The notes beneath the pieces were generated by a model that was not told where the DNA came from, searched no databases, and saw nothing but the letters and a program-made list of their open reading frames with translations. From Planococcus rifietoensis (lineage in GTDB: Bacteria; Bacillota; Bacilli; Bacillales_A; Planococcaceae), in NCBI RefSeq assembly GCF_001465795.2, contig NZ_CP013659.2:762501-826500 (forward strand): 64,000 nt of DNA. Direction: 5' to 3'. Of the stretch, positions 1-37,219 are shown one piece after another. The stretch's first letter is position 1. The number at the start of each line of letters is the position of its first letter. A program made the translations under genes and the position numbers.

Positions 1-1714
<1,714 letters not shown>

Positions 1715-1791
1715 CAAACTGAAACGCAAGTTTCCCACAATGTCGATTTATCCGGTTTTGAAAGAATAAGATATTAATTTTAAAATAATAC

Positions 1792-1819
1792 TTGAAAAAA
1801 TCGGTATTATTGATATAAT
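1792..1819 (+). promoter_or_regulatory. Candidate sigma-A promoter in the 23S-5S spacer
   Basis: TTGAAA (1792-1797) and TATAAT (1814-1819) are separated by 16 bp in an AT-rich stretch between 23S and 5S. A start near 1826 would precede the 5S gene by about 20 bases. It could supply extra transcription of 5S and the following 18 tRNAs independently of the upstream rrn promoters. The sequence match is good; the function is inferred. Confidence 0.45.
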
Positions 1820-1844
1820 AAATCTTGTCTTTCAAATTAATGCA

Positions 1845-1961
<117 letters not shown>

Positions 1962-1971
1962 TGGTTATTAT

Positions 1972-2046
1972 TCCGAAGTAGCTCAGTGGTAGAGCACCGC
2001 ACTGTTAATGCGATGGTCGTAGGTTCGAGTCCTACCTTCGGAGCCA
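1972..2046 (+). tRNA. tRNA-Asn (GTT)
   Basis: A cloverleaf is formed with acceptor TCCGAAG/CTTCGGA, anticodon loop CTGTTAA (anticodon GTT), T-loop GGTTCGAGTCC and encoded CCA. It is the first tRNA of the cluster, as in B. subtilis trnD. Confidence 0.96.
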
Positions 2047-2051
2047 ATTAT

Positions 2052-2141
2052 GGAGAGCTGTCCGAGTGGCCGAAGGAGCATGATTGGAAATCATGTAGGC
2101 GGGCAACCGTCTCAAGGGTTCGAATCCCTTGCTCTCCGCCA
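2052..2141 (+). tRNA. tRNA-Ser (GGA)
   Basis: A class II tRNA of about 90 nt with a long variable arm, acceptor GGAGAGC/GCTCTCC, anticodon GGA within GATTGGAAATC, and encoded CCA. Confidence 0.95.
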
Positions 2142-2162
2142 GTATCTTAAGTTCAAAATAAA

Positions 2163-2237
2163 GGCCCCTTGGTCAAGCGGTTAAGACACCGCCCTTTCAC
2201 GGCGGTAACACGGGTTCGAATCCCGTAGGGGTCACCA
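2163..2237 (+). tRNA. tRNA-Glu (TTC)
   Basis: Acceptor GGCCCCT pairs with AGGGGTC; the anticodon loop is CTTTCAC (TTC); the T-arm is GGGTTCGAATCCC and CCA is encoded. Confidence 0.95.
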
Positions 2238-2243
2238 TTCAAT

Positions 2244-2319
2244 GGAGGATTAGCTCAGCTGGGAGAGCATCTGCCTTACAAGCAGAGGGTCGGCGGTTCG
2301 ATCCCGTCATCCTCCACCA
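2244..2319 (+). tRNA. tRNA-Val (TAC)
   Basis: Acceptor GGAGGAT pairs with ATCCTCC, the anticodon is TAC (loop CTTACAA), the T-arm is CGGTTCGATCCCG and CCA is encoded. Confidence 0.95.
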
Positions 2320-2361
2320 TTTCTTTTATGCATATAATATAGAAGGAAAAATAAATATTAT

Positions 2362-2439
<78 letters not shown>

Positions 2440-2441
2440 AT

Positions 2442-2517
2442 GGTCCCGTGGTGTAGCGGTTAACATGCCTGCCTGTCACGCAGGAGATCGCCGGTTCGAT
2501 CCCGGTCGGGACCGCCA
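2442..2517 (+). tRNA. tRNA-Asp (GTC)
   Basis: Acceptor GGTCCCG/CGGGACC, anticodon loop CTGTCAC (GTC), T-arm CCGGTTCGATCCCGG, encoded CCA. Confidence 0.95.
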
Positions 2518-2534
2518 TTTTTATTAATTAATAT

Positions 2535-2610
2535 GGGTCAGTAGCTCAGTCGGTAGAGCATTAGATTGAAGCTCTAAGTGTCGGCGGTTCGATTCCGTCC
2601 TGACCCACCA
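2535..2610 (+). tRNA. tRNA-Phe (GAA)
   Basis: Acceptor GGGTCAG/CTGACCC, anticodon loop TTGAAGC (GAA), T-arm CGGTTCGATTCCG, encoded CCA. Confidence 0.94.
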
Positions 2611-2624
2611 TATTTTTTCTCCAT

Positions 2625-2700
<76 letters not shown>

Positions 2701-2703
2701 TTA

Positions 2704-2787
2704 GGTGGGGTAGCGAAGTGGCTAAACGCGGCGGACTGTAAATCCGCTCCTTCGGGTTCGGCAGTTCGAATCTGCCCCCCACCACCA
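2704..2787 (+). tRNA. tRNA-Tyr (GTA)
   Basis: A class II tRNA with acceptor GGTGGGG/CCCCACC, anticodon GTA (ACTGTAAAT), a long variable arm and encoded CCA. Confidence 0.95.
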
Positions 2788-2793
2788 GTTTTT

Positions 2794-2867
2794 AGGGGCA
2801 TAGTTTAACGGTAGAACAGAGGTCTCCAAAACCTCCGATGTGGGTTCGATTCCTACTGCCCCTGCCA
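2794..2867 (+). tRNA. tRNA-Trp (CCA)
   Basis: Acceptor AGGGGCA/TGCCCCT, anticodon loop CTCCAAA (CCA), T-arm GGGTTCGATTCCT, encoded CCA end. Confidence 0.95.
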
Positions 2868-2885
2868 TTTTTAAAATATTATGTT

Positions 2886-2962
2886 GGCGGTCGTGGCGAA
2901 GTGGTTAACGCACCGGATTGTGATTCCGGCACTCGGGGGTTCAATTCCCCTCGTCCGCCCCA
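2886..2962 (+). tRNA. tRNA-His (GTG), copy 1 of 3
   Basis: A 77-nt tRNA with the extra 5' G typical of tRNA-His, anticodon GTG (ATTGTGATT) and encoded CCA. It is the first member of a 118-bp tandem triplication. Confidence 0.95.
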
Positions 2963-3003
2963 TGTTTTTCTAGAAATTTTAATATCATACATAATAATAG
3001 CGT

Positions 3004-3080
3004 GGCGGTCGTGGCGAAGTGGTTAACGCACCGGATTGTGATTCCGGCACTCGGGGGTTCAATTCCCCTCGTCCGCCCCA
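3004..3080 (+). tRNA. tRNA-His (GTG), copy 2 of 3
   Basis: Identical in sequence to copy 1, with the extra 5' G, anticodon GTG and encoded CCA. It is embedded in the 118-bp tandem repeat. Confidence 0.95.
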
Positions 3081-3121
3081 TGTTTTTCTAGAAATTTTAA
3101 TATCATACATAATAATAGCGT

Positions 3122-3198
3122 GGCGGTCGTGGCGAAGTGGTTAACGCACCGGATTGTGATTCCGGCATTCGGGGGTTCAATTCCCCTCGTCCGCCCCA
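3122..3198 (+). tRNA. tRNA-His (GTG), copy 3 of 3
   Basis: Same as copies 1 and 2 except for one C-to-T change before the T-arm. CCA is encoded. The downstream spacer differs, so this copy marks the original right boundary of the duplicated unit. Confidence 0.95.
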
Positions 3199-3205
3199 GT
3201 ATTAT

Positions 3206-3277
3206 TGGGGTATAGCCAAGCGGTAAGGCAACGGGTTTTGATCCCGTCATGCCCTGGTTCGAATCCAGGTACCCCAG
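3206..3277 (+). tRNA. tRNA-Gln (TTG), no encoded CCA
   Basis: Acceptor TGGGGTA/TACCCCA, anticodon loop TTTTGAT (TTG), T-arm CTGGTTCGAATCCAG. The bases after the discriminator read CTT rather than CCA, so the 3' end must be made by RNase Z cleavage and CCA addition. Confidence 0.94.
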
Positions 3278-3282
3278 CTTTT

Positions 3283-3357
3283 GCGGAAGTAGTTCAGTGG
3301 TAGAACGCCACCTTGCCAAGGTGGAGGTCGCGGGTTCGACCCCCGTCTTCCGCTCCA
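3283..3357 (+). tRNA. tRNA-Gly (GCC)
   Basis: Acceptor GCGGAAG/CTTCCGC, anticodon loop TTGCCAA (GCC), T-arm CGGGTTCGACCCCCG, encoded CCA. Confidence 0.95.
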
Positions 3358-3364
3358 TTATTTA

Positions 3365-3438
3365 GGCGGCATAGCCAAGCGGTAAGGCATGGGTCTGCAA
3401 CACCCTTACCACCGGTTCGAGTCCGGTTGCCGCCTCCA
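3365..3438 (+). tRNA. tRNA-Cys (GCA)
   Basis: Acceptor GGCGGCA/TGCCGCC, anticodon GCA (TCTGCAACA), T-arm CCGGTTCGAGTCCGG, encoded CCA. Confidence 0.95.
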
Positions 3439-3447
3439 AACTATTTT

Positions 3448-3531
3448 GCCGGCGTGGCGGAATTGGCAGACGCGCGGGACTCAAAATCCCGTTCCTTCAC
3501 GGGAGTGTCGGTTCGACCCCGACCGCCGGTA
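3448..3531 (+). tRNA. tRNA-Leu (CAA), copy 1, no encoded CCA
   Basis: A class II tRNA with acceptor GCCGGCG/CGCCGGT, anticodon loop CTCAAAA (CAA) and a long variable arm. The 3' flank reads TCA instead of CCA. It is followed by a small hairpin and a terminator, ending the first tRNA operon. It is identical to the copy at 3745. Confidence 0.94.
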
Positions 3532-3539
3532 TCAAATGA

Positions 3540-3561
3540 TCATCACTCTGCCAAGTGATGA
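3540..3561 (+). other. Trailer hairpin with CTGCCA loop behind tRNA-Leu copy 1
   Basis: TCATCACT (3540-3547) pairs with AGTGATGA (3554-3561) around the loop CTGCCA. The same loop closed by a different stem recurs behind the second tRNA-Leu at 3836-3855. It lies between the CCA-less tRNA end and the terminator. A role in 3' processing is inferred only. Confidence 0.6.
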
Positions 3562-3569
3562 AAGCTTAA

Positions 3570-3599
3570 AACTCTGACTTTTATAGTCAGAGTTTTTTC
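3570..3599 (+). terminator. Intrinsic terminator of the rrn-tRNA operon
   Basis: AACTCTGAC pairs with GTCAGAGTT around TTTTATA and is followed by a T run. Confidence 0.9.
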
Positions 3600-3667
3600 T
3601 TTATTTATATGAATGATTTGCAGTTGTACACAGCAAAGATTTTTTTAAAAAAATAGCTAATAACCCC

Positions 3668-3696
3668 TTGCAAAATAATCGGTTTACTAATATAAT
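3668..3696 (+). promoter_or_regulatory. Sigma-A promoter of the second tRNA-Leu gene
   Basis: TTGCAA (3668-3673) and TATAAT (3691-3696) are separated by 17 bp. They lie about 50 bases before the solitary second tRNA-Leu, which follows a terminator and so needs its own promoter. Confidence 0.75.
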
Positions 3697-3744
3697 AATA
3701 AATGTTCCTGAAAGCAATGAATAATTGTTTCTGGATTCAATTTT

Positions 3745-3828
3745 GCCGGCGTGGCGGAATTGGCAGACGCGCGGGACTCAAAATCCCGTTCCTTCACGGG
3801 AGTGTCGGTTCGACCCCGACCGCCGGTA
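3745..3828 (+). tRNA. tRNA-Leu (CAA), copy 2, no encoded CCA
   Basis: Identical in sequence to the tRNA-Leu at 3448-3531, again followed by TCA rather than CCA. It has its own promoter and terminator and so forms a monocistronic unit. Confidence 0.94.
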
Positions 3829-28960: not shown

Positions 28961-30130
28961 GTGAATCGAAAAGAACGCTGGATGGAAATCCTGAAAGCCT
29001 CGACCAAGCTGGGATTGACTTCGTTTGGCGGGCCGGCTGCCCATATCGGCTATTTCCGGGATGAATATGTACATAGAAGAAAATGGTTGGACGATAAAGC
29101 GTATGCAGACTTGGTAGCGTTATGCCAATTCTTGCCGGGTCCTGCAAGTTCGCAGGTCGGCATCTCGATCGGCATGCTGCGTGGAGGGATCATGGGCGGA
29201 TTTTTATCCTGGCTCGGGTTTACTTTGCCTTCTGTCATTGCCTTGATGATTTTCGCCATACTGATCAGCAGCGGTTCCGTCGATATTGCTTGGCTGCAAG
29301 GCTTGAAGATTGTCGCCGTCGCGGTCGTCGCGCATGCCTTGCTTGGCATGGGGAAATCACTGACACCGGATGTTCAGCGGCTGATGATCGCCTTTGGTGC
29401 GGCCATCGCCATTTTGCTGGTGCCGACCGCTTGGGCACAAATCGTTGTTATTCTATTGACGGGCGTCATCGGGTTTTTATTGTACCGGAGAGAACAAGCG
29501 CCTGAAGCCGTCAAGCTCGCCTTAACCTTCGGCAAAAAGACCGGTCTCGCCGCTTGGGGTATTTTCGGGGCATTGCTGATCGGCTTGCCGCTCGTGCGCC
29601 CATTTATCGAGTCGAGCGCGTTTGCGATTTTTGATATTTTCTACCGTGTCGGCGCGATCGTCTTTGGCGGGGGCCATGTCGTCTTGCCGATGCTCGAGCG
29701 TGAAGTCGTGCCTGAATGGATGACGGCAGACGCCTTTATCGCAGGATACGGGGCGGCACAGGCTGTTCCGGGGCCATTGTTTACTTTGTCTGCTTATTTG
29801 GGGCAATTGATGAACGGGGCGGGTGGCGTATTGATCGCCGTCATCGCAATGTTCTTGCCTTCATTCCTGTTGGTCATCGGAACCTTGCCATTTTGGAGCG
29901 TCATCCGCACGAAGCCCGGCATCCAAGCAGCCTTAAAAGGCATCAATGCAGGGGTTGTTGGAATTTTGCTTGCGGCGCTGTATGATCCGGTTTTCACCTC
30001 CGCCATTCAAGGGCCGGTTGACTTCGCCATTGCGATTGCCGCCTTCGGAATGTTAGTCTATTTGAAACTGGCTCCGTGGAAAGTCGTCTTGATTACGGCA
30101 CTTCTCGGTGCGCTGGCTTATGCTCTATAG
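28961..30130 (+). CDS. chrA: CHR-family (chromate) transporter
   Basis: 389 residues, the long form with two CHR domains. The N-terminal domain shows GLTSFGGPAAHIGYF and LCQFLPGPASSQVG; the C-terminal domain repeats the pattern with GAIVFGGGHVVLPML and GAAQAVPGPLFT. About ten helices. Named ChrA members export chromate. The GTG start 28961 has AAAGGGAGATG upstream. It lies 17 bases ahead of kynU on the same strand, so an organic anion of the kynurenine pathway is an alternative substrate to consider. Confidence 0.9.
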   Translation: MNRKERWMEILKASTKLGLTSFGGPAAHIGYFRDEYVHRRKWLDDKAYADLVALCQFLPGPASSQVGISIGMLRGGIMGGFLSWLGFTLPSVIALMIFAILISSGSVDIAWLQGLKIVAVAVVAHALLGMGKSLTPDVQRLMIAFGAAIAILLVPTAWAQIVVILLTGVIGFLLYRREQAPEAVKLALTFGKKTGLAAWGIFGALLIGLPLVRPFIESSAFAIFDIFYRVGAIVFGGGHVVLPMLEREVVPEWMTADAFIAGYGAAQAVPGPLFTLSAYLGQLMNGAGGVLIAVIAMFLPSFLLVIGTLPFWSVIRTKPGIQAALKGINAGVVGILLAALYDPVFTSAIQGPVDFAIAIAAFGMLVYLKLAPWKVVLITALLGALAYAL

Positions 30131-30147
30131 AAATGGAGAGATGAGAT

Positions 30148-31401
30148 TTGGACACGGCAATGCAGAAAGACCAACAAGATCCGTTAGCTAAATTCAAAGA
30201 AGAGTTTTTTGTTGAACCTGGAACGATTTATATGGATGGGAATTCACTCGGCTTGATGTCAAAGCGTGCTGAAACAAAGCTAATTGCGCTCATGGACAGC
30301 TGGAAACAGTTCGGCATTGAGGGCTGGACAGAAGGCGAACATCCGTGGTTTACGCTGGCGGAGACGCTGAGCGAAAAAGCGGCGCCTTTGTTCGGGGCGA
30401 AAGCGCATGAAGTGATGGTCACCGGCTCGATCACGTCGAATATCCACCAGATGCTGTCGACAGTCTATGCGCCGACAGAGGAGCGTTTTGTCATCTTGGT
30501 CGACGAGCTGAATTTCCCGTCTGACATTTATGCAGTGGAGAGCCATTTGCGCCTGCGCGGGCAAGATCCGGCAATCGCAATGCGCAAAGTACCAAGCCGT
30601 GACGGCTACACGCTTGAACTGGAAGATATTTTGGCAGAAATGAAAGACGATGTGGCGGTGCTATTGCTGCCGTCGGTTCTTTACCGAAGCGGCCAATTGC
30701 TGCCGCTCCGTGAGATTACGCAAGCTGCACACAAGCACGGCATCATCGCAGGATTCGACTTGGCTCACTCAGCAGGCGCCATGCCGCATAATTTGCATGC
30801 GGACGGCGTAGATTTCGCTGTCTGGTGCCATTATAAATACATGAATTCAGGTCCTGGCGGCACAGGCGGCTTGTATTTGCATGAGCGCCATCACGATTTG
30901 AATCCTGGAATAGCCGGCTGGTTCGGTTCCGACAAAGCGAAGCAATTCGACATGGACCATAGCTTCACGAAAGCGGAAGGAGCCGGAGCTTATCAGGTCG
31001 GCACGCCGAATATTTTCAGCATGGCACCGCTGATTGGCAGCCTGGAATTATTTGAAGAAGCAGGGATCGACAAGGTCCGCAGCAAATCGCTGGAGTTGAC
31101 GACGATGCTGCGCGAGAGGCTTGCGGCGCTCGTGCCTTCTTTAATGGATGTCACGCCAAAAGCGGATGGACAGCGCGGAGGCCATATCGCGGTTGCGCAT
31201 CCTGAAGCGGCGCGCATCTGCAAAGCGTTGAAAAAAGCAGGGATTGTTCCGGACTTCCGTGCGCCGGATATTATTCGCCTGGCGCCGATTGCTTTCTACA
31301 CGAGCTTTGAAGATGTGGAGAAAGTGGTGCTCGCTTTACAGGATATTATCGAGCACGAGCTTTACAAAGAATTCAGCAACGAACGAAATGTGGTGGCGTA
31401 A
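30148..31401 (+). CDS. kynU: Kynureninase
   Basis: A 417-residue PLP enzyme cleaving kynurenine to anthranilate and alanine in tryptophan breakdown. Visible: YMDGNSLGLMS near the N-terminus, WFTLAE, VTGSITSNIH, the aspartate region AGFDLAHSAGA, and the PLP lysine 230 in CHYKYMNSGPGG. Near the C-terminus APDIIRLAPIAFY. Start TTG 30148 follows GGAGAG; an internal ATG at codon 5 is an alternative. Its stop abuts the kynB start. No kynA (tryptophan 2,3-dioxygenase) lies next to it. Confidence 0.95.
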   Translation: MDTAMQKDQQDPLAKFKEEFFVEPGTIYMDGNSLGLMSKRAETKLIALMDSWKQFGIEGWTEGEHPWFTLAETLSEKAAPLFGAKAHEVMVTGSITSNIHQMLSTVYAPTEERFVILVDELNFPSDIYAVESHLRLRGQDPAIAMRKVPSRDGYTLELEDILAEMKDDVAVLLLPSVLYRSGQLLPLREITQAAHKHGIIAGFDLAHSAGAMPHNLHADGVDFAVWCHYKYMNSGPGGTGGLYLHERHHDLNPGIAGWFGSDKAKQFDMDHSFTKAEGAGAYQVGTPNIFSMAPLIGSLELFEEAGIDKVRSKSLELTTMLRERLAALVPSLMDVTPKADGQRGGHIAVAHPEAARICKALKKAGIVPDFRAPDIIRLAPIAFYTSFEDVEKVVLALQDIIEHELYKEFSNERNVVA

Positions 31402-32025
31402 ATGACAAAATCGATCATAGACATTTCGATGGCGCTGGACAGTTCAACTCCGGAATGGCCGGGGGATACGCCGTTTTCCTATCGCTTATCAGTCACGAAA
31501 GAAGAGAGCGGCTCGGTGAATATCGGCGAACTCAAGTCAAGCACGCATATCGGCACGCATATTGACGCACCGTTCCATTACGATGAAAATGGCTTGAAGA
31601 CTGACGAATTGCCGCTTGAAGTATATTTGACGACAGCCCAAGTGATGGACGTGTCGGGTCATGAACAAGTGCAATTGTCTGATTTGGATGAGCTTGCGCA
31701 TGGTGTCACTGCTGTGCTGTTGAAGACGGCCGCGTGGCAAGACCGCAGCGCGTTTCCTGGAGCTTGGCCGGTATTCGACCCGGCGATCGCCGAATGGATG
31801 AAAGACCAAGGCGTCCGCCTGCTCGGCGTCGATGTGCCGTCAGTGGATCCTGAGACGAGCAAAGAACTGCCGATGCATCATGCGATGAACCGCAACGAGC
31901 GCTTTATCTTGGAAGGCATTGTGTTGGATGAGGTTGCGCCGGCTGTCTACAAACTTGCTGCATTGCCTTTGAAGATCCGAGGCGGGGAAGGAAGCCCTGT
32001 ACGCGCCGTACTTTACACAGAATAA
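31402..32025 (+). CDS. kynB: Kynurenine formamidase (cyclase family)
   Basis: A 207-residue metal-dependent hydrolase converting N-formylkynurenine to kynurenine. The metal motif HIGTHIDAPFHY and LLGVDVPSVDP are typical of bacterial KynB. ATG follows the kynU stop with no gap, so translation is coupled. Together KynB and KynU turn N-formylkynurenine into anthranilate; the dioxygenase step must be encoded elsewhere. Confidence 0.93.
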   Translation: MTKSIIDISMALDSSTPEWPGDTPFSYRLSVTKEESGSVNIGELKSSTHIGTHIDAPFHYDENGLKTDELPLEVYLTTAQVMDVSGHEQVQLSDLDELAHGVTAVLLKTAAWQDRSAFPGAWPVFDPAIAEWMKDQGVRLLGVDVPSVDPETSKELPMHHAMNRNERFILEGIVLDEVAPAVYKLAALPLKIRGGEGSPVRAVLYTE

Positions 32026-32684: not shown

Positions 32685-33206
32685 TCATTTCACCACAAGA
32701 ACGGTAGAATTTGAATCTTTGATCAGCTTACTGCTGACAGAACCGACAAAGAATTTCTGCAATCCGGATTTACCGCTATTGCCGACAATCAAGAGATCGA
32801 TATTTTGCTCATCAATAAATCCAGTGATTGTCTTGATGACCGGACCTTCCAGTGCAAGGACGGAAGCTTCGGCATTTTTTGCGTCGAGCTGTTGTTGAAT
32901 GGAATTGTGCATATGCTTCGAGTATTCCGATGCACGTCCCGTATCCAACTCCTGCGGCGGCCGGTAGCCATCATCTCCGATTCCCTGCGGCATGAATTGC
33001 GCATATGAACTGTCGACATTTGCAGAAGTGACCGGTGCGGAAGCATGCCCCACATCCATGTAGCCTGTGCGTTCCTGCGCTTCTTCGTTGACGTAGATGA
33101 CCGTCAGCTTAGAGCCTGGAAGAATCTTGGAAAGTTCTATGCCTTTCTCCAGCGCCAGCCGGCTGCCTTCCGACCCATCATATGCGATTGCGATATTCTT
33201 ATACAT
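32685..33206 (-). CDS. Universal stress protein (UspA family)
   Basis: About 173 residues with the Usp alpha/beta fold. The N-terminal strand NIAIAYDGSEGS and the C-terminal nucleotide-binding motif GNSGKSGLQKFFVGSVSS (G-x2-G-x9-G-S/T pattern) predict ATP binding. A central insertion of about 45 residues (about 45-90), rich in Ser, Pro and Gln, makes it longer than minimal Usp proteins. ATG 33206 is preferred over GTG 33215; GGTGA precedes it. A sigma-B-like promoter lies at 33242-33267, fitting a general-stress role. Confidence 0.9.
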   Translation of the reverse strand: MYKNIAIAYDGSEGSRLALEKGIELSKILPGSKLTVIYVNEEAQERTGYMDVGHASAPVTSANVDSSYAQFMPQGIGDDGYRPPQELDTGRASEYSKHMHNSIQQQLDAKNAEASVLALEGPVIKTITGFIDEQNIDLLIVGNSGKSGLQKFFVGSVSSKLIKDSNSTVLVVK

Positions 33207-33241
33207 TTCTTTCACCGCCTCAATTTACTGTTATTCTCTTG

Positions 33242-33331: not shown

Positions 33332-33384
33332 TTAGTTCAAAATAGCTTGACAATTCAAAAAAACGAGTGGTACTCTTGAACTAA
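33332..33384 (+). promoter_or_regulatory. bmr promoter framed by an inverted repeat
   Basis: TTGACA (33347-33352), 18 bp, TACTCT (33371-33376). A perfect 9-bp inverted repeat, TTAGTTCAA (33332-33340) and TTGAACTAA (33376-33384), flanks it, one arm just before the -35 and one overlapping the -10 end. GAACTAACA occurs again at 33297-33305. This looks like a repressor operator; the regulator is unknown. Confidence 0.6.
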
Positions 33385-33412
33385 CAAATATTTGGAAAAG
33401 GAGGTTTGGACA

Positions 33413-33502
33413 ATGAAAAAAATTCAAAAGGCGTTTAAAACCAATTGCATAGCATTGCCAGGCACTCCGATGATTTTTAATTGCTATTTACTTCGTGACT
33501 AG
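33413..33502 (+). CDS. Leader peptide of the bmr-type exporter operon (29 aa)
   Basis: ATG 33413 follows a strong AAAGGAGG. The 29-residue product begins MKKIQKAFKTNC, continues IALPGTPMIFNC and ends YLLRD. A 15-bp terminator hairpin follows 39 bases after the stop, then a short ORF and a BmrC/BmrD-like ABC exporter. In B. subtilis, bmrB encodes a leader peptide whose translation controls termination ahead of bmrCD in response to ribosome-targeting antibiotics; the layout here is the same. The codons for Pro-Gly-Thr contain CAGGCA, complementary to TGCCTG in the 5' arm of the terminator, so alternative pairing is possible. A RiPP precursor is less likely because no maturation enzyme is adjacent. 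Confidence 0.75.
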   Translation: MKKIQKAFKTNCIALPGTPMIFNCYLLRD

Positions 33503-33541
33503 AAATATTCGGGTTGGGTCTGTGCATCCAGTCCTATTTTC

Positions 33542-33578
33542 AAGAGCGCATGCCTGAAAACAGGTATGCGCTCTTTTT
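33542..33578 (+). terminator. Attenuator terminator of the bmr operon
   Basis: AAGAGCGCATGCCTG pairs over 15 bp with CAGGTATGCGCTCTT around AAAA, followed by T5. Placed between the leader ORF and the exporter genes, it should stop most transcripts unless translation of the leader is perturbed. Confidence 0.88.
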
Positions 33579-33638
33579 GTGTGGTTTAAACAGCCTGGCT
33601 GCTTAAATAAATAATCGAAACTAAGGGAGAGAAGCATT

Positions 33639-33695
33639 ATGGAAAAAGTTCATGTAAAAAAAGCACTCATCAAGGAATCGCTTGAAGGCGATTAG
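33639..33695 (+). CDS. Second short ORF (18 aa) upstream of the exporter
   Basis: ATG 33639 is preceded by AAGGGAGAG at good spacing. The 18-residue charged peptide is MEKVHVKKALIKESLEGD. It lies after the attenuator and 31 bases before the exporter start. It could tune translation of the exporter or be the remnant of a longer BmrB-like frame. No family recognised. Confidence 0.45.
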   Translation: MEKVHVKKALIKESLEGD

Positions 33696-33726: not shown

Positions 33727-35466
33727 ATGTTTGATGTTTTATGGAAATTGAAATGGTTTTTTAAAGAAAACTGGCTGCGCTACACCATCGCAGTGGTGCT
33801 CTTATTTGTAGCGAATATTCTCGAAATCGTGCCGCCGTGGCTGATCGGCGTGGCCATCGATGCCATTGCCCAGCAGGAATTGACCAGTGAATTGCTGTGG
33901 CAGTATGTCGTCGTTTTACTTGTGGCGATGGTGCTGGCTTATGTCATCAATTTCATCTGGCAATACCAATTGTTCGGCGGGGCTTATGTCATCGAGCGGC
34001 AATTGCGGTCAAGCTTGATGGGGCATTTCCTCAAGATGACGCCCACATTTTATGAGAAGAACCGTACGGGAGACTTGATGGCCCGTTCGACCAATGATTT
34101 AAAGGCGATTTCCGAGACGGCAGGATTTGGGATCTTGACGCTTGTCGACTCGACTTTATACATGGCGACGATCATCGTGGCGATGGGGATTCTCGTGTCA
34201 TGGGAATTGACGTTCTTGGCTATTTTGCCATTGCCGGTGCTCGCGATTGTCGTCCAATTGCTCGGCAAGAAAATCCATGAGCGCTATACTTTGGCGCAGG
34301 ACGCATTCGGTGACATGAACGACAGCGTCCTGGAATCAGTCGGCGGCGTCCGCGTCGTCAGAGCATACGTGCAGGAACGTTCATCTGAGAAGGAATTCCA
34401 GGAAATGACGCAGGATGTCTATGAAAAGAACATGGCGGTCGAGCGCATCGATGCGCTGTTCGCGCCGGTCACAAAAGTGCTGACGGGTATCAGTTATGTC
34501 ATCGGCCTCGGCTATGGCGCGTTTCTTGTTTCCGAAGGAACAATGACTTTGGGTGATTTGGTTGCCTTTAACGTTTATCTCGGCATGATCGTCTGGCCGA
34601 TGTTTGCGATCGGTGAACTGATCAATATCCTGCAGCGCGGCAATGCATCGATCGACCGCGTCAATGAAACGCTGGATTATGAAGAAGACGTGGTTGACCC
34701 GAAAACGACAAAAGAAACCGGGCATCCGGAGCGCATCGGCTTCCGCGATTTCGGCTTCACTTACCCACAATCGACTACAATTAATTTGCAAGGCATCAAT
34801 TTATCGATGAACAGCGGGCAGACGCTCGGCATCGTCGGCAAGACGGGAAGCGGCAAAACGACATTCGTCAAGCAGCTGCTGAAGGAATACCCAACAGGTG
34901 AAGGGTCGTTAACGATGAATGGCATCGAAATCAACGAACTGAGCAAAGCGCAATTGCGCGATTGGGTCGGCTATGTCCCGCAGGATCACGTCTTGTTTTC
35001 ACGGACCATCCTCGAGAACATCCTGTTCGGAAAAGCGGATGCGACAGAAGAGGAAGTGTCCCAAGCCATCAAGCTGTCCTATTTCGAAAAAGATTTGGCG
35101 ATGCTGCCGAACGGTCTCGAGACGCTAGTCGGCGAAAAAGGCGTCGCATTATCAGGTGGGCAAAAGCAGCGCATTTCCATTGCGCGGGCAATCATCAAAA
35201 ATCCGGAAATCCTCATTTTGGATGATTCTCTCTCGGCGGTCGACGCTAAGACGGAAGCCAAAATCATCGAAAATATCCAACGTGAACGGGCAGGCAAGAC
35301 GACGATCATCACGACGCACCGGTTGTCTGCCGTCAAACACGCCGATTGGATCGTCGTGCTAGATGATGGGCGCATCATCGAAGAAGGCACACACGAGAAA
35401 TTAGTGGCAAAACAAGGCTGGTATCATGAACAATTCCTCCGCCAGCAAATCGGGGAGGTGCAATAA
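33727..35466 (+). CDS. bmrC: ABC multidrug exporter half-transporter, BmrC (YheI)-like
   Basis: 579 residues: six-helix exporter domain (about 15-310) fused to a nucleotide-binding domain with Walker A GKTGSGKTT (from 371), signature LSGGQKQ and Walker B LILDDSLSAVD. The residue after the Walker B aspartate is Asp 500 rather than catalytic Glu, the hallmark of the degenerate site of B. subtilis BmrC. It forms a heterodimer with the next gene and exports drugs such as Hoechst dye and ethidium in B. subtilis. It is controlled by the upstream attenuator. GAAGGCG precedes ATG 33727. Confidence 0.92.
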   Translation: MFDVLWKLKWFFKENWLRYTIAVVLLFVANILEIVPPWLIGVAIDAIAQQELTSELLWQYVVVLLVAMVLAYVINFIWQYQLFGGAYVIERQLRSSLMGHFLKMTPTFYEKNRTGDLMARSTNDLKAISETAGFGILTLVDSTLYMATIIVAMGILVSWELTFLAILPLPVLAIVVQLLGKKIHERYTLAQDAFGDMNDSVLESVGGVRVVRAYVQERSSEKEFQEMTQDVYEKNMAVERIDALFAPVTKVLTGISYVIGLGYGAFLVSEGTMTLGDLVAFNVYLGMIVWPMFAIGELINILQRGNASIDRVNETLDYEEDVVDPKTTKETGHPERIGFRDFGFTYPQSTTINLQGINLSMNSGQTLGIVGKTGSGKTTFVKQLLKEYPTGEGSLTMNGIEINELSKAQLRDWVGYVPQDHVLFSRTILENILFGKADATEEEVSQAIKLSYFEKDLAMLPNGLETLVGEKGVALSGGQKQRISIARAIIKNPEILILDDSLSAVDAKTEAKIIENIQRERAGKTTIITTHRLSAVKHADWIVVLDDGRIIEEGTHEKLVAKQGWYHEQFLRQQIGEVQ

Positions 35467-35467
35467 G

Positions 35468-37219
35468 ATGGGAACAGGAAAACGATTAACGAATTATGCA
35501 TTGCAATTCAAGAGCGTCATTATCTGGGGCTTGGTGTTCCTTGCGGTGGCGGTGGCCGCTGATTTGGCCGCCCCTTTGATCGCCATGGAAATCATTGATG
35601 AACACATTTCGGGTGCCGGGGAAATCGAATTCGGCCCAATCGCACAGCTTTTGGCCTTGTTCTTCGGCTTGTCGGTCGTCACGGCAGTGTTCCGCTATTT
35701 GCAGTACATCTTGCTGCAAAAAGGCGCAAACCGTGTCATTCGCAAAATGAGAACTGATGTCTTCGAACAGGTCCAACGCTTGCCGATCAGCTATTTCGAT
35801 AATTTGCCGGCAGGAAAAGTGGTTGCGCGCATCACCAACGACACAGAAGCAATCCGCGAATTATTCGTCACGGTGCTCGCGCAATTCGCGACAAGCTTCA
35901 TGTATATGGCAGGAATCTATGCCGCTCTCTTTTATCTGGATTGGCGCATGGCGGCGATCGCCTTCGTGCTCGTGCCACTCTTGTATGCATGGATGCTCAT
36001 TTACCGGAAATACGCTTCAAATTTCAACCATATCGTCCGGGAAAAAGTCAGTGAGATGAATGCCATGATCAATGAATCGATTCAAGGCATGAGCATCATC
36101 CAGGCGTTTCGGCGCGAGAAGCAGATGAAAGGCGAATTTGAAGAACTCAACGACAAGCATTTCAAATTCCAACAGAAGTTATTGGTGCTTGAAGCAGCCG
36201 CCTCGCATAATATGGTTGGCGTCTTGCGCTCAATGATTTTCGTTCTATTCATCTGGTATTTCGGCGGTGCTTCGATGAGCGGCAATACGGTCGTGACGGT
36301 CGGCGTCCTTTACGCATTCGTCGACTACATCATCCGGCTGTTCAACCCGATCAGCGGCATCGTCAACCAATTCAGCCGCCTTGAGCAGGCGCTTGTAGCG
36401 GCGGAACGCGTATTCCGCTTGCTCGACCGCCCCGGCGAACCGGTCAGCGATGAGCGGGTGGAGCGTTACGAAGGCAATGTGCGTTTTGAACATGTGTGGT
36501 TTGCGTATAAAGATGAAGAGTACGTGCTGAAAGATCTGTCTTTCGAAGCGAAACAAGGGGAGACGGTCGCACTGGTCGGCCATACAGGATCAGGGAAAAG
36601 TTCGATCATGAATTTGCTGTTCCGTTTTTACGATGCGACAAAAGGGGAGATTTTAATTGACGGCGTCAATGTCAATGATCTGCCAAGACAGGCAGTGCGC
36701 GAACACATGGGCATCGTGCTGCAGGATCCGTATTTGTTTACCGGCACGATCGAATCCAATATCACGCTTGGGGATGACCGCGTGAGCCGTGAAAAAGCGG
36801 AAGCGGCACTTGCAGCAGTTGGAGGCGAGCGCGTCACGAAGCATTTGCCGAATGGCATCGATGAGCCGGTTGTGGAAAAAGGCAGCACGCTTTCTTCCGG
36901 ACAGCGCCAGCTCGTGTCATTTGCACGGGCGCTCGCATTCGATCCAGCGATTTTGATCCTGGATGAAGCGACGTCGAATATTGATACCGAGACAGAGGAA
37001 ATCATCCAGCATGCAATGGATGTATTGAAGAAAGGCCGGACGACGTTCATCATCGCCCACCGTTTGTCGACCATCAAGAATGCAGACCGTATCTTGGTGC
37101 TCGACCGGGGTGAAATCGCTGAATCCGGCACGCATGATCAATTGATGGATCATGATGGCATCTACCGCCAGATGTATCGCATCCAATCAGGGATGGCTTC
37201 TACCCAGAACGTTGGGTAA
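35468..37219 (+). CDS. bmrD: ABC multidrug exporter half-transporter, BmrD (YheH)-like
   Basis: 583 residues: exporter transmembrane domain (about 10-320) and NBD with Walker A GHTGSGKSS, signature LSSGQRQ (unusual Ser) and canonical Walker B LILDEATSNID with catalytic Glu 500. It thus provides the active residue complementing BmrC. ATG 35468 lies one base after the bmrC stop with GGGGAGGTG upstream, so the two are co-translated. The in-frame extension to 35426 inside bmrC is not used. Confidence 0.93.
   Translation: MGTGKRLTNYALQFKSVIIWGLVFLAVAVAADLAAPLIAMEIIDEHISGAGEIEFGPIAQLLALFFGLSVVTAVFRYLQYILLQKGANRVIRKMRTDVFEQVQRLPISYFDNLPAGKVVARITNDTEAIRELFVTVLAQFATSFMYMAGIYAALFYLDWRMAAIAFVLVPLLYAWMLIYRKYASNFNHIVREKVSEMNAMINESIQGMSIIQAFRREKQMKGEFEELNDKHFKFQQKLLVLEAAASHNMVGVLRSMIFVLFIWYFGGASMSGNTVVTVGVLYAFVDYIIRLFNPISGIVNQFSRLEQALVAAERVFRLLDRPGEPVSDERVERYEGNVRFEHVWFAYKDEEYVLKDLSFEAKQGETVALVGHTGSGKSSIMNLLFRFYDATKGEILIDGVNVNDLPRQAVREHMGIVLQDPYLFTGTIESNITLGDDRVSREKAEAALAAVGGERVTKHLPNGIDEPVVEKGSTLSSGQRQLVSFARALAFDPAILILDEATSNIDTETEEIIQHAMDVLKKGRTTFIIAHRLSTIKNADRILVLDRGEIAESGTHDQLMDHDGIYRQMYRIQSGMASTQNVG

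Follow-up and report, generated by a model that had tools for sequence, protein, structure and literature searches.

A probable ribosome-operated attenuator in the bmrCD leader of Planococcus rifietoensis, with a start site that pairs with its own reading frame and a second conserved small ORF

Leader attenuators of the kind considered here are already known from Bacillus subtilis, where, as far as the accessible parts of the publications go, they have been described for bmrB-bmrCD (PMC4191407), vmlR (PMC9226507) and tlrB (PMC6851288). For the exporter genes bmrCD, Reilman 2014 (PMC4191407) reported in the part available to us that expression is lower and induction is lost when translation of the leader is abolished, that two C-to-G changes result in raised expression that is no longer controlled, and that the terminator mutant is constitutively high. 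In the case of vmlR, the accessible text describes an arrest of the ribosome by the drug on the uORF at the stage of initiation (PMC9226507).

We analysed a bmrCD-type locus in a stretch of 64,000 nucleotides from P. rifietoensis (NZ_CP013659.2, positions 762,501 to 826,500), in the following called the window; all features of the leader and both exporter genes lie on its forward (+) strand. The genes encode a bmrC-type (33727..35466) and a bmrD-type ABC exporter half (35426..37219), the ORF of the latter overlapping bmrC, with the true start of bmrD probably located slightly 3′ of the ORF start. Both halves carry the Pfam domains ABC_membrane and ABC_tran, and their best PDB matches are the B. 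subtilis YheI and YheH chains, which identifies them as BmrC and BmrD orthologues. BmrC of the window shares 99% identity with the proteins of Planococcus citreus and several other Planococcus records. Divergent from the leader, a UspA-like gene, as we take it to be, occupies 32685-33215 on the opposite strand, and positions 28961-32025 presumably hold a chromate-transporter-like ORF followed by kynureninase-like and kynurenine-formamidase-like ORFs. At the start of the window (1-3828), the end of a 23S gene, a 5S gene and 18 densely clustered tRNA matches were observed.

A first-pass annotation of the window letters had described a 29-codon ORF with a strong ribosome site, a 15-bp terminator and the exporter gene pair, and all of these were found again. 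The description is correct but incomplete, as the same leader also contains a promoter-like pair, two further hairpins (H1 and H3) and another small ORF (uORF2). The promoter-like pair (33347..33376) is of sigma-A type, with TTGACA at 33347-33352, an 18-nt spacer and an extended -10 element, TGgTACTCT, whose hexamer TACTCT (33371-33376) is a candidate named from the sequence; resembling motifs were seen by eye 5′ of the leader ORF in relatives. The Shine-Dalgarno sequence (SD) AAGGAGGT at 33398..33405 was assigned by sequence and a shuffle control. It precedes the leader ORF, uORF1 (33413..33502; ATG at 33413, TAG at 33500-33502), with the product MKKIQKAFKTNCIALPGTPMIFNCYLLRD. Hairpin H1 (33511..33534), followed by a weak U-rich stretch, and hairpin H2 with its T-run (33542..33578), the main intrinsic terminator, are located between uORF1 and bmrC. 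The H2 stem-loop, AAGAGCGCATGCCTG-AAAA-CAGGTATGCGCTCTT at 33542-33575, comprises 15 bp with one G-U pair and is followed by T's. Hairpin H3 (33584..33608) lies 3′ of the terminator; by eye, its position is kept across Planococcaceae and the stem sequences differ. A translatable, SD-bearing leader ORF ahead of the exporter and an intrinsic terminator between its start and bmrC are thus both present, as in an attenuator. In Rfam the leader had no match at gathering score. Membership in a known family was discarded, as a relaxed cutoff gave 11 matches, all below the gathering score, with best E values of 0.0047 (Atu_C9) and 0.027 (rli41); we take these as terminator-like chance matches.

For comparison, bmrC loci were collected from titled records (80) and from two genome samples (30 matches each, 6 of them common), and 80 further upstream stretches, one of them of 300 nt only, were added from the genome samples as part of the matches listed. 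In total, this gave 214 bmrC loci, 186 of them with distinct upstream sequence. Cutoffs for finding uORF1, hairpins and uORF2 were set for this analysis. An ATG ORF of 17-32 aa with an SD match of at least 6 nt at set spacing was detected in 116 of the 186 upstream sequences, compared with 8 of 930 dinucleotide shuffles. The SD-ATG ORF is kept across Bacillales, and this conservation supports the earlier proposal of a leader-ORF transcription attenuator ahead of the BmrCD exporter. Of the 186 distinct upstreams, 145 gave a call for uORF1 with a terminator behind it; the 41 loci without a uORF1 call and the 67 without the uORF2 motif were excluded from the respective tests. From the 145, 47 dissimilar leaders (cut at a 6-mer similarity of 0.15) were used for pairing tests; in these representatives uORF1 has a median length of 24 codons, against 29 in the window.

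The pairing tests covered 28 block pairs in the 47 leaders, of which 46 had blocks 3 and 4, and compared the duplex energy with the native partner to that with partners swapped between leaders. Region 1 comprises the SD and start codon of uORF1 (33399..33416 in the window), and region 2 is a stretch within the same ORF, GCATTGCCAGGCACTCCG, around the codons for IALPGTP (33452..33469). Their pairing (1:2) was better than with swapped partners at p=3.9e-13, a value that, like all those given here, assumes independence of the 47 leaders, each of which was chosen among leaders with a uORF1 and terminator call. All 47 leaders have the SD within this pairing, and 41 of them the start codon. The window duplex between AGGAGGTTTGGACAATGA and GCATTGCCAGGCACTCCG has an energy of -20.7 kcal/mol and beats 46 of 46 swaps. 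Of 29 Planococcus-type loci chosen, 26 were parsed (L048, L049 and L051 were left out), and their 1:2 energies range from -14 to -29 kcal/mol, including L038, at which the terminator was misplaced and a wrong hairpin was scored as H2. The second partner of region 2 is region 3 (33508..33527), the 5′ arm of H1. This 2:3 pairing between the uORF1 body and H1 reached p=2.5e-4 in the 47-leader set and 6e-5 with region 2 narrowed; scored against the 5′ arm of either H1 or the called terminator, region 2 gave p=1.9e-7. Energies of 2:3 were between -11 and -23 kcal/mol in all 26 parsed Planococcus-type loci, again including L038 with its misplaced terminator. The window has a 2:3 energy of -16.2, which taken alone is no better than swaps (rank 0.41; 0.29 and 0.51 in a repeat test).

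The positive controls, the H2 stem (5:6, p=7.1e-15) and the H1 stem (3:4, p=2.8e-14), were recovered, and the control pairs 1:3 (p=0.31), 1:5 (p=0.61) and 3:5 (p=0.56) were flat, so that shared base composition is not the source of the pairing signal. Low p-values were also obtained for pairs involving block 8, which comprises the last 100 nt (5:8, p=8e-4; 2:8, 0.005; 7:8, 0.007; 6:8, 0.009; 3:8, 0.04); we attribute them to block overlap in short leaders. The 2:7 pairing gave p=0.03. Comparison between diverged lineages shows that the predicted helices 1:2, H1 and H2 and the alternative helix 2:3 are maintained and the leader peptide is not.

On this basis the bmrCD leader is likely to work as a transcription attenuator operated by the ribosome, with the ribosome binding site (RBS) and start codon of uORF1 pairing with a later part of uORF1. 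Formation of helix 2:3 excludes both helix 1:2 and H1. In the proposed mechanism, helix 1:2 would form on an RNA free of ribosomes, H1 and H2 would fold and transcription would stop. A ribosome running through would cover region 2, and H1 and H2 would form again. A ribosome stalled by a drug on the first codons would cover region 1 and leave region 2 free to pair with region 3; this should dissolve H1, and RNA polymerase would read into uORF2, bmrC and bmrD. The sensor would then be the position at which the ribosome stops, not the peptide. Such a design rule, with the leader ORF's own start site as the first strand of the attenuator, would take the place of the search for an arrest peptide, would explain the drift of the leader peptides and could explain the induction of bmrCD by lincosamides, drugs acting early.

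Fold predictions agree with this mechanism in part. When region 1 was masked, as it would be by an early-stalled ribosome, 27 of 47 leaders gained 3 bp or more of pairing between region 2 and downstream RNA, and 24 of 47 lost 3 bp or more from their downstream helices; with region 2 masked, 2:3 is gone by construction. In minimum-energy folds of the window, H1 forms in the free leader and when the ribosome is late, but is missing when it is early. However, in the equilibrium ensemble of the free window leader, region 2 has 8.0 expected bp of downstream pairing against 3.0 for 1:2, and these modelled values count against a clean switch at equilibrium.

The loss of H1 has to be linked to the main terminator. 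A helix between the 3′ side of H1 and the 5′ arm of H2 (4:5) would provide the link and disarm H2, but it is lineage-bound. In the 47-leader set, no H2-blocking helix is maintained in general (4:5, p=1.0; extended 4:5, p=0.85), and other candidate partners of H2 were rejected, namely the region behind H2 (5:7, p=0.35), the SD (1:5, p=0.61) and the 5′ UTR (0:5, p=0.79). Blocking helices were seen only in the B. subtilis group and in the window's clade: in the former, AAGCGCTGTGC pairs with GCATGGAGCT at -12.2 to -12.7 kcal/mol in 9 of 11 loci and more weakly (-8.7) in 2, and in the latter 10 of 26 loci have a helix of about -13 between GGGTCTGTGCA, on the loop side of H1, and AGCGCATGCCTG. The pairings 1:2 and 2:3 are supported and would be candidates for anti-antiterminator and antiterminator, and a domino of five strands, 2:3 and then 4:5, is a possible, lineage-bound extension suggested by these pairings.

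As at B. subtilis tlrB, H1 and H2 could instead be kept open physically by the bulk of a ribosome near the uORF1 stop, with 1:2 only limiting re-initiation. According to the accessible part of the publication, tlrB works in this way and no overlapping antiterminator was identified there (PMC6851288). The missing general helix against H2 fits such a reading, as does the distance from the end of region 2 to the last base of the stop codon (median 16 nt in the 47 leaders), by which a terminating ribosome would reach towards H1. However, ribosome bulk does not predict the 2:3 pairing, which is maintained, and H2 of the window begins 39 nt past the uORF1 stop, beyond the usual footprint of a terminating ribosome. 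We therefore regard this explanation as unlikely, and prefer the early stall with release of region 2.

Still less probable is the model of the first-pass annotation, in which the peptide with its IALPGTP core, two Cys and YLLRD end arrests the drug-bound ribosome and CAGGCA in the ORF pairs with TGCCTG in the terminator arm to block the terminator. Both motifs are indeed present in the window letters, their pairing exists there (-11.8 kcal/mol), and a swap rank of at most 0.05 for the ORF body with the 5′ arm of the terminator was found in 8 of 47 leaders, compared with 2-3 expected. Over all 47 leaders, however, this pairing (2:5) does not exceed that of swapped partners (p=0.23), and in several of the strong cases the scored terminator looks, on our reading, like the first hairpin 3′ of the ORF. 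As a conserved antiterminator CAGGCA:TGCCTG was rejected: it amounts to about -12 kcal/mol in the window's clade and is weak, at -2 to -7, outside of it, the value of -10.3 at L038 having been scored against the wrong hairpin.

The stalling peptide fared no better. Peptide arrest at IALPGTP was rejected, since the core is not conserved and the codon phase is random: the SD-pairing base falls on codon position 0, 1 or 2 in 13, 18 and 16 leaders (p=0.67, n=47), which points to the RNA and not the peptide as the part of region 2 under constraint. The region-2 DNA of two loci (L045 and L046) is kept in different frames, and in L004 and L005 uORF1 is 23 aa long and stops after IFH, so that the tail CYLLRD of the window is absent. 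Conserved arrest residues, as in the nascent-chain arrest class of ErmCL or the RYR of tlrB, were not found in these divergent peptides. The weakest alternative, a conserved terminator that merely insulates bmrCD with the small ORFs as leftovers, can practically be dismissed in view of the uORF1 (116/186 against 8/930) and uORF2 (119/186 against 1/1860) counts, the maintained helices and the antibiotic-dependent read-through described for the orthologous B. subtilis leader in the accessible text (PMC4191407).

The second conserved ORF, uORF2 (33639..33695), had been missed by the earlier annotation. It encodes MEKVHVKKALIKESLEGD, carries the SD GGGAG and ends with UAG at 33693-33695, ahead of bmrC. 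Its motif, with an end of the form [DE][SGD][GD], was detected in 119 of 186 leaders compared with 1 of 1860 shuffles; among the distinct titled loci plus the window, the count is 71 of 80. The ORF has 16-27 codons, mostly 18, and its stop lies 15-44 nt before bmrC. Its codons vary synonymously, with CTA, CTT, CTG, CTC, TTA and TTG for Leu at position -4 and all four codons for Gly at -1, which points to selection on the peptide. In a recount outside genus g32 with a slightly different filter, UAG was the stop in 115 of 115 ORFs with the motif, which 67 of 182 leaders lack. In genus g32 the motif is present in 31 of 31, with UGA (17), UAA (10) and UAG (4) as stops, by which a universal UAG rule is broken. 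The base after the stop is C or T in 112 of 119. In pattern searches, 14 of 16 matches in 61 genomes of the family lie just before bmrC, and 10 of 11 matches in 398 genomes of the class precede bmrC, the remaining one being in genome G440.

Termination-arrest leaders such as TnaC and SpeFL have conserved C-terminal residues directly before the stop codon. The conserved residues of uORF2 adjoin the stop in the same position, and no sequence similarity is claimed; this conserved end suggests arrest or slow termination at the stop. Pairing of uORF2 with the RBS of bmrC was not found in 15 block pairs of 42 leaders (lowest p=0.18), and a role within an RNA hairpin hiding this site was rejected on the same value and a mean fold z-score of 0.04. 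Titled bmrC loci without a motif call are L064, L069, L072, L093, L094, L099, L105, L106 and L108. Among them, L064, L072 and L093 have the terminator close to bmrC and are natural variants without a second ORF, and L069 has a near-miss end, KKESLEGE. At L116, uORF2 is located about 200 nt before bmrC with extra sequence between. In the open-access literature, covered mostly by title and beginning of the abstract, no paper on uORF2 of bmrCD, the 23-aa frame discussed below or the 1:2 rule was found.

The two matches in the 61 family genomes that do not precede bmrC belong to a complete second copy of the leader. By eye, it consists of a promoter-like pair, uORF1, H1, H2, H3 and uORF2, followed by a 40-aa ORF without a Pfam match. 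This ORF was matched in 9 of 151 family genomes, in two of them in a shortened form, and it is preceded by uORF1 and uORF2 at 9 of 9 loci found, 7 of which were parsed; inspection of the sequence by eye supplied uORF2 at L223 and the start of uORF1 at L225. The joint presence at all nine loci indicates that uORF2 travels with the attenuator. These second cassettes (L217-L225) occur in genus g5 and in one g3 genome. At L215 and L216, the SD of the next ORF lies within a TTCTCCTTAAGGAGAA palindrome.

The B. subtilis leader itself was compared through locus L230 (genome G541), where BmrC and YheI agree in all of the 306 residues compared. A 162-bp GTG ORF at this locus ends 119 bp before bmrC and exactly matches the description of bmrB. 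The homologue of uORF1 is another frame, with an ATG at -297 after GGAAGGAGGG and the product MPRNLRVYQTVSYWRGKPFVLFS. In the B. subtilis group, the exact SD-ATG motif is present in 11 of 12 loci including L230 (L233 was not parsed), with an ORF of 23-32 aa in all 11. By comparison, 7 of these 11 loci retain the GTG of bmrB, and the 53-aa GTG frame passes H2 in 5 of 11. In the window, the terminator does not lie inside the leader ORF as published, since uORF1 ends at 33502 and H2 starts at 33542, and the ATG frame of L230 likewise ends before H2. The match to bmrB seen in the first-pass annotation thus stands for the BmrCD leader attenuator as such, but not for the published arrangement with the terminator inside the 53-aa GTG frame. 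From the conservation of the frames, the published bmrB (53 aa, GTG) is probably mis-assigned, and the overlapping 23-aa ATG frame with its strong SD would be the conserved one; we predict that sensing in the model organism depends on an ORF other than the annotated bmrB.

The published experiments, as given in the accessible part of the report, can be placed on these frames. By position arithmetic on L230, nucleotides 136 and 140 of bmrB fall on two C's of the 3′ arm of H2. The construct without start codon also altered start codons or RBSs in the 5′ UTR (PMC4191407), where the ATG frame begins, so that it may not separate the two frames. An in-frame bmrB-gfp fusion gave no detectable signal from the chromosome and a signal from a plasmid (PMC4191407); by the latter, the bmrB frame can be translated. 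The effects of the translation block and of the terminator mutant fit the early-stall mechanism.

Taken together, a sensor of two stages is conceivable, although we put it forward only tentatively as a whole: the self-masked uORF1 would gate transcription by the position of a drug-bound ribosome, the end of uORF2, [DE][SG]G followed mostly by UAG, would hold a ribosome at the stop just upstream of bmrC and so determine how the read-through message is translated or how stable it is, the cassette would move as a unit to other genes, and the textbook bmrB frame would be wrong.

The comparison with known systems, drawn from the accessible parts of the respective papers, shows a likeness to each of them. 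At ermB, two small leader ORFs (ermBL and ermBL2) also precede the resistance gene, but control is by translational attenuation and no terminator between the ORFs is described (PMC8274638). The B. subtilis tlrB (yxjB) leader shares a leader peptide and drug-responsive transcription attenuation and differs by a conserved RYR arrest motif at the peptide end and by the absence of an identified overlapping antiterminator (PMC6851288). With B. subtilis vmlR, the likeness extends to a uORF within the anti-antiterminator, a lincosamide arrest at the initiation stage, as proposed here, and an intrinsic terminator; that tripeptide variants of other Bacillus species also work there is counted as a further likeness (PMC9226507). 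In contrast, the vmlR uORF has 3 codons, its SD is single-stranded and the gene is a different one (PMC9226507); vmlR also has a hairpin at the vmlR SD, to which no counterpart was found in the bmrCD leader. The closest system is bmrB-bmrCD of B. subtilis, although the published 53-aa GTG ORF contains the terminator whereas the strong-SD ORF of the window and its relatives ends before H2, and the accessible text of PMC4191407 makes no mention of 1:2, 2:3 or uORF2. The two share an orthologous exporter and, as reported for B. subtilis (PMC4191407) and predicted for the window, the need of leader translation for induction and terminator read-through; H2 of the window corresponds by position to the mutated terminator, and the layout of 1:2, 2:3, H1 and H2 is also present in L230.
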